Shown here: piece by piece, positions 17,822 to 18,354 of the stretch
Layout of the letters: each line of letters opens with the position of its first letter
Position numbering within the stretch: position 1 is the first letter of the stretch
From: Heliocybe sulcata
Taxonomy: Eukaryota; Basidiomycota; Agaricomycetes; Gloeophyllales; Gloeophyllaceae
DNA length: 64,000 bases
Assembly: GCA_004369045.1 (NCBI GenBank)
Contig: ML213510.1
Coordinates: forward strand, 1,088,004 to 1,152,003
Direction: 5' to 3'
The notes under the pieces: model-generated
What the model was told of the DNA's origin: nothing
Database searches by the model: none
What the model saw: the letters and a program-made list of their open reading frames with translations, nothing else
Translations under genes and position numbers: made by a program

Positions 17822-18354
17822 ATGGCGCGTACCAAGCAAACTGCCCGCATGTCCACCGGTGGTAAGTCTCTTCTCGGTCAGTGTTTGTATCGTGGCTCAT
17901 CCTGGATAGGCAAGGCCCCTCGTAAGCAGCTTGCTGCCAAGTCCGCCGCTCGTAAGACCGCCGCCGCCGCCACCGGTGGTGTCAAGAAGCCTCATCGCTT
18001 CCGGCCTGGAACCGTCGCTCTTCGCGAAATCCGTCGCTACCAAAAGTCGACCGAGCTCCTTATCCGAAAGCTCCCCTTCCAGCGCCTCGTCCGTGAGATT
18101 GCACAGGATTATAAGGTTCGCCATCCTTATCCTCTTTGTTGATCTCATGGCACCTTTTCTCATAATCATCGTGTGCATTGTAGACGGACCTGCGCTTCCA
18201 ATCCTCCGCCATCACGGCCCTCCAAGAAGCCGCCGAGGCCTACCTCGTCTCCCTCTTCGAAGATACGAACCTTGCCGCTATTCACGCTAAGCGTGTTACT
18301 GTCAAGCCAAAGGACCTGGCTCTGGCTAGACGTCTGCGTGGCGAGCATGTGTAG
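17822..18354 (+). CDS. Variant histone H3 with methionine at position 9 (H3K9M)
   Basis: Three exons, 17822-17861, 17910-18115 and 18184-18354, the same sizes (40, 206, 171) and intron sites as the ordinary H3 gene, giving 138 residues with Met. The tail reads [18 protein letters not shown]: codon 17849-17851 is ATG where the other copy has AAG, so Lys9 is Met. K4, K14, K18, K23 and the K27 and K36 equivalents are kept. Other changes from the ordinary copy are Phe to Tyr before K79 (QDYK), SSAIT for SSAVM, RVTVK for RVTIQ, and GEHV for GERS at the end. The frame, splice sites and TATA element are whole, so it looks expressed. Lys-to-Met at K9 is known to trap and inhibit SET-domain K9 methyltransferases; that role here is inference. 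Confidence 0.95.

Follow-up and report, generated by a model that had tools for sequence, protein, structure and literature searches.

A diverged histone H3 paralogue encoding methionine at residue 9 in Heliocybe sulcata

Introduction

A close described counterpart of the gene reported here is hht3-K9M of Schizosaccharomyces pombe, in which one of several H3 genes likewise carries Met9 in the presence of a Clr4-type enzyme. According to the accessible part of PMC5030085, this Lys-to-Met exchange acts dominantly in fission yeast, as an earlier note on the present DNA had stated; extra Clr4 relieves the effect in part, H3 genes emerged as suppressors, and diploid yeast with one H3K9M copy shows partial effects. 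The same excerpt describes that, when SAM is present, the Met9 side chain fills the lysine-binding pocket of G9a and Clr4 binds a Met9 peptide more strongly. The string ARTKQTARM denotes a synthetic peptide there, and it also occurs in the available text of PMC9677696. Unlike the naturally occurring paralogue studied here, which has diverged and has another upstream region, hht3-K9M is laboratory-made.

Other systems share part of these features, as far as the available portions of the respective sources go. Arabidopsis H3.15 (K27H) is, like the K9M protein, a natural H3 variant without a methylatable silencing lysine, but the exchange affects residue 27 and introduces His instead of Met, and the variant is described as acting through replacement, whereby the mark is lost (PMC10426802, in part). 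EZHIP is a native sequence that blocks a SET methyltransferase, PRC2, much as the K27M oncohistone does; however, it is not a histone, targets the K27 enzyme, and was described in human tumours (PMC6513997, in part). Candida H3V-CTG is a fungal H3 variant with few residues changed and has a regulatory role, yet it differs at residues 31, 32, and 80 rather than at K9 (PMC6703697, in part). The earlier note knew of no described natural H3K9M paralogue, and we found none either among the matches listed for open-licence literature on K9M and on natural or fungal H3 variants; the accessible parts of PMC9018016 and PMC2939574 contain no description of a natural K9M.

Here, we analyze such a gene in a window of 64,000 nucleotides (C8:1088004-1152003) of the H. 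sulcata genome, which was searched in its assembly of 31.6 Mb in 51 contigs.

Results

Structure of the K9M gene and its relation to other histone genes

The K9M gene is intact, comprises three exons (17822-18354, +), and encodes a product of 138 amino acids. Its codon 10 is an in-frame ATG, i.e., residue 9 counted after the start Met. The two introns measure 48 and 68 bases, are bounded by GT..AG, and occupy positions identical to those of the ordinary H3 gene A (Table 1). Reading frame and splice sites are thus in good accordance with the earlier note, which had reported an ATG codon at this place in an otherwise intact three-exon gene and intron sites in common with the ordinary copy, and the assembly sequence bears out a natural H3 gene that encodes K9M. 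At positions -3 and +4, the first ATG is accompanied by A and G, and the Met9 codon by C and T. By the start-context rule, we consider internal initiation at the Met9 codon unlikely.

Table 1. Coordinates of the K9M gene, ordinary histone genes and their upstream regions. Positions refer to the window unless a contig is given.
Feature	Position	Strand	Remarks
K9M H3 exon 1	17822..17861	+	codon 10 ATG at 17849-17851
K9M H3 exon 2	17910..18115	+	
K9M H3 exon 3	18184..18354	+	stop TAG at 18352-18354
K9M upstream region	17216..17821		presumably in common with a divergent gene not assigned to a family
Ordinary H3 gene A, Lys9	13455..13983 (exons 13983-13944, 13885-13680, 13625-13455)	-	nearest K9M paralogue by dS
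H3 A/H4 intergenic promoter region	13984..14300		AACGAAACCTTAT at 14142-14154
Histone H4 gene	14301..14783	+	divergent partner of H3 gene A
Ordinary H3 gene C	G000:C1:307706-308273 (L025), contig 1		read with six exons

The encoded protein has the H3 histone fold and a canonical tail. It is identical to the products of genes A and B at 130 of its 138 residues, and both matched exons exceed the Pfam histone cut-off. Searching the genome by DNA and by histone family revealed at least three H3 genes with Lys9 (A, B, and C) and, on contig 2, a CENP-A-like gene, these counts being lower bounds. The K9M protein is not CENP-A: it is 94% identical to ordinary H3, and a separate gene, here labelled CENP-A-like, is present. 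Gene B is located on the contig of the K9M gene, about 18 kb before the window. The proteins of genes A and B are identical, and either gene is arranged divergently to an H4 gene; a tblastn search with H4 identified neither an H4 gene nor an H4 remnant beside the K9M gene. As regards the other H3-type genes, gene C has a different tail, ATK-AARKTATAAATGG, and in the CENP-A-like gene (G000:C2:1311546-1311964, L060) the Lys9 context of the tail is still H3-like.

Divergence and selection

From the proteins of genes A and B, the K9M protein differs at eight residues, K9M itself and seven in the globular domain: F78Y, V89I, M90T, I119V, Q120K, R134H, and S135V in canonical numbering (human H3 is two residues shorter than these fungal H3 proteins). 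K9M is the sole change in the tail. The dN/dS comparison suggested in the earlier note yielded, for the nearest copy A, a dS of 0.64 (NG86) or 0.47 (YN00) and a dN of 0.032 or 0.039, respectively, with synonymous differences at 42 codons. For copy B, dS amounts to 1.02 (NG86) or 1.21 (YN00). When gene C serves as outgroup, 9, 7, and 4 third-position sites speak for the alternative groupings of A, B, and the K9M gene. The K9M gene is best regarded as a genuine and old paralogue of H3; it is not an ordinary H3 with one base changed.

Gene-specific changes, counted without six three-state columns, number 21 synonymous and 9 replacement changes in the K9M gene, 20 and 0 in A, and 33 and 0 in B. 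The replacement share is higher in the K9M gene than in A and B combined (Fisher P 4e-5). At the same time, its replacements stay far below the neutral expectation (binomial P 6e-7), with strong constraint on the remainder of the protein, in tests that average over the whole K9M branch and that a recent loss of constraint after long constraint would pass. Neutral evolution was simulated 2000 times with 30 substitutions each, and the minimum was 11 amino-acid changes versus 8 observed. Since 45% of these simulations contained no stop codon, the open frame of the K9M gene alone is weak evidence. A pseudogene in long neutral decay was also considered and rejected as unlikely on account of the replacement and synonymous counts.

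Location of the changes and residue 9 among H3 proteins

Site variability was derived from 184 of 229 retrieved proteins, 45 having been dropped due to low coverage or identity; as top matches, the retrieved proteins are biased towards query-like H3s. The seven globular changes reveal a mean site entropy of 0.69, compared to 0.195 at random sites (P 0.0011). Their sites rank 1, 3, 7, 12, 19, 22, and 44 of 93 by variability, and one of the changes, I119V, maps to a nearly constant site. Of 182 aligned H3 proteins, on the other hand, 181 carry Lys and one carries Ile at residue 9, and a motif scan at position 9 across the 229 retrieved proteins counted 243 Lys and 2 Arg. Judged by these alignments, the K9M change appears to hit an almost invariant H3 site. 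If eight random replacement changes are placed in the coding sequence of copy A, 0.7% of cases should contain K9M, and 2.8% a Lys-to-Met exchange at one of K4, K9, and the protein's own residues 38 and 39 (canonical K36, K37), both figures being post hoc, with the site picked as striking.

Within residues 87-90, the K9M protein differs from A and B only at 89 and 90. It reads S87, I89, and T90 and thus does not match the H3.3-like patch A87, I89, G90; V89I and M90T lie inside the patch read by mammalian chaperones, a patch known from mammals, while Ser87 is kept. In mammals, A87 and G90 guide the H3.3 chaperones (PMC6171237, in part).

A protein-database census with the K9M protein as query gave no Met9 among the best 120 of 7999 matches, of which 113 have the tail motif with Lys9 and 7 lack the motif; because the database groups its entries at 90% identity, 94%-identical variants can hide in this census. 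Many of the closest single-H3 matches among these 120 come from what we take, judging by genus names, to be Agaricomycete fungi. A query of the tail only, with filler, likewise gave no Met9 among the best 120 of 7344 matches. It is without power, since the K9M protein scores 31.2 bits and would itself miss the list floor of about 35.5. A query with designed Met9 words returned no candidates where chance alone was estimated to give some, and it is not relied on. Scans for a DNA pattern of the Met9 tail matched no contig in viral_contigs and a single one in genome_contigs, which stems from a planctomycete and was dismissed, as the stretch does not read as H3. Met9 may be confined to this one species or even strain.

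Upstream regions

Both divergent H3/H4 promoters have the sequence AACGAAACCTTAT in common, once between gene A and its H4 partner and once at G000:C8:1070297-1070309. These are its only exact matches in the 31.6 Mb genome, where about one is expected by chance. If one mismatch is allowed, the genome contains 25 matches versus 51 for a reversed control, so the motif itself shows no enrichment. A copy with two mismatches is present in the H2A/H2B region, and AACGAAACCTTAT may be an element of histone promoters. The 606-base region upstream of the K9M gene lacks it even if up to four mismatches are allowed. However, 41 of 100 shuffled versions of this region also lack a match better than five mismatches, and the ordinary gene C is without the element as well (best match with four mismatches in 800 bases); consequently, its absence is no proof of special regulation.

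The K9M gene is organized unlike the H3/H4 pairs. A TATA-like CATATAAC is located upstream at 17704-17711. For expression or deposition of the K9M protein outside S phase, the missing H3/H4 element is the only pointer and may give a hint. A program-made ORF (16531-17505, -), divergent from the K9M gene and about 600 bases apart, has no Pfam match.

Putative target machinery

A cognate SET methyltransferase of the Clr4/SUV39 type is encoded in the genome. The profile search revealed one Pre-SET match, a lower bound with genes searched exon by exon, and the SET pieces are Clr4-like. Compared to PDB entries, the Pre-SET part matches Clr4 with E 4.1e-11 and the start of SET with E 1.3e-5, while the end of SET matches SETMAR first (3.8e-6) and Clr4 with E 5.4e-5; the middle exon has no significant PDB match. 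The pieces also match other H3K9 methyltransferases in PDB, and the NHSC and F-x-Y motifs align to an H3K9-specific enzyme.

The genome further contains six DNA methylase matches. Within the window, an HP1-like gene is found at 43264-44000 (+), about 25 kb from the K9M gene. Its chromo piece (43264-43326) lies above the Pfam cut-off in the genome search and below it in a direct scan (22.9 vs 25.1 bits), and its chromo-shadow piece at approximately 43.9-44.0 kb reaches 17.4 bits, under the cut-off of 22.4 bits. The name HP1-like is therefore fair but weakly supported.

Discussion

Our best reading, to which we tentatively give a little less than an even chance, is that the K9M gene encodes a separately regulated H3 variant which is kept under selection and antagonizes H3K9 methylation. 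The two roles first proposed for it, a stage-specific antagonist and a replacement histone, are inferences. The protein would be produced at one stage or another and become part of the chromatin, possibly outside S phase. Residue 9 of its tail could then take neither methylation nor acetylation, and the Met9 tail would occupy the SET pocket of the methyltransferase when SAM is present. Nucleosomes with the K9M protein would be exempted from K9 methylation, and the enzyme would be trapped as well. Trapping and exemption combined are predicted to cause a dose-dependent drop in H3K9 methylation, such that the variant may act as a built-in heterochromatin brake in some stage or cell type. As one mutant copy in diploid yeast gave partial effects, trapping would be weak if expression is low.

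That the true residue is Lys9 and the ATG merely reflects a one-base sequencing or assembly error is highly improbable: AAG and ATG are one base apart, but a miscall of precisely this base would be rare a priori, and due to the seven other amino-acid changes and the synonymous differences at 42 codons in comparison with copy A, the gene must be regarded as diverged and not as a miscalled copy. More has to be said about a spare H3 copy on which selection was recently relaxed, with weak or no expression and an incidental K9M, which we consider possible but somewhat unlikely. The concentration of replacement changes on the K9M gene (9 versus 0 and 0) fits such a copy, as does a gene without H3/H4 promoter element and H4 partner; moreover, a brief late neutral phase could yield about nine replacements and no stop, in line with the 45% of stop-free simulations. 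Yet most of the seven other changes affect variable H3 sites (P 0.0011), nothing else in the tail is altered, the two introns and the start context are preserved, and random replacement would produce K9M in only 0.7% of cases, albeit by a post hoc count.

A passive replacement variant, which marks chromatin unable to carry K9 methylation and traps no enzyme, is decidedly unlikely in our view. Arabidopsis H3.15 sets the precedent for K27 (PMC10426802, in part), the upstream region differs from that of the H3/H4 pairs, and V89I and M90T lie in the patch read by mammalian H3.3 chaperones (PMC6171237, in part). Enzyme trapping, on the contrary, is suggested by the occupation of the G9a lysine pocket by Met and by the stronger binding of the Met9 peptide to Clr4 with SAM (PMC5030085, in part).

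The reading as a selected antagonist of H3K9 methylation can be taken further, to a conserved, developmentally regulated natural oncohistone. This we judge unlikely. A dedicated H3K9M gene, retained by a fungal lineage, would then be switched on at a defined stage such as spore, dikaryon or fruit-body formation, in order to trap the H3K9 methyltransferase and thereby erase or bound heterochromatin.

Lys-to-Met histones are so far known from tumours and engineered strains. If the K9M gene is a natural case, evolution has used the Lys-to-Met trick too, and H. sulcata would provide a native system for dose-dependent heterochromatin control. The gene yields a clear prediction, in a genome in which few H3 genes were found.
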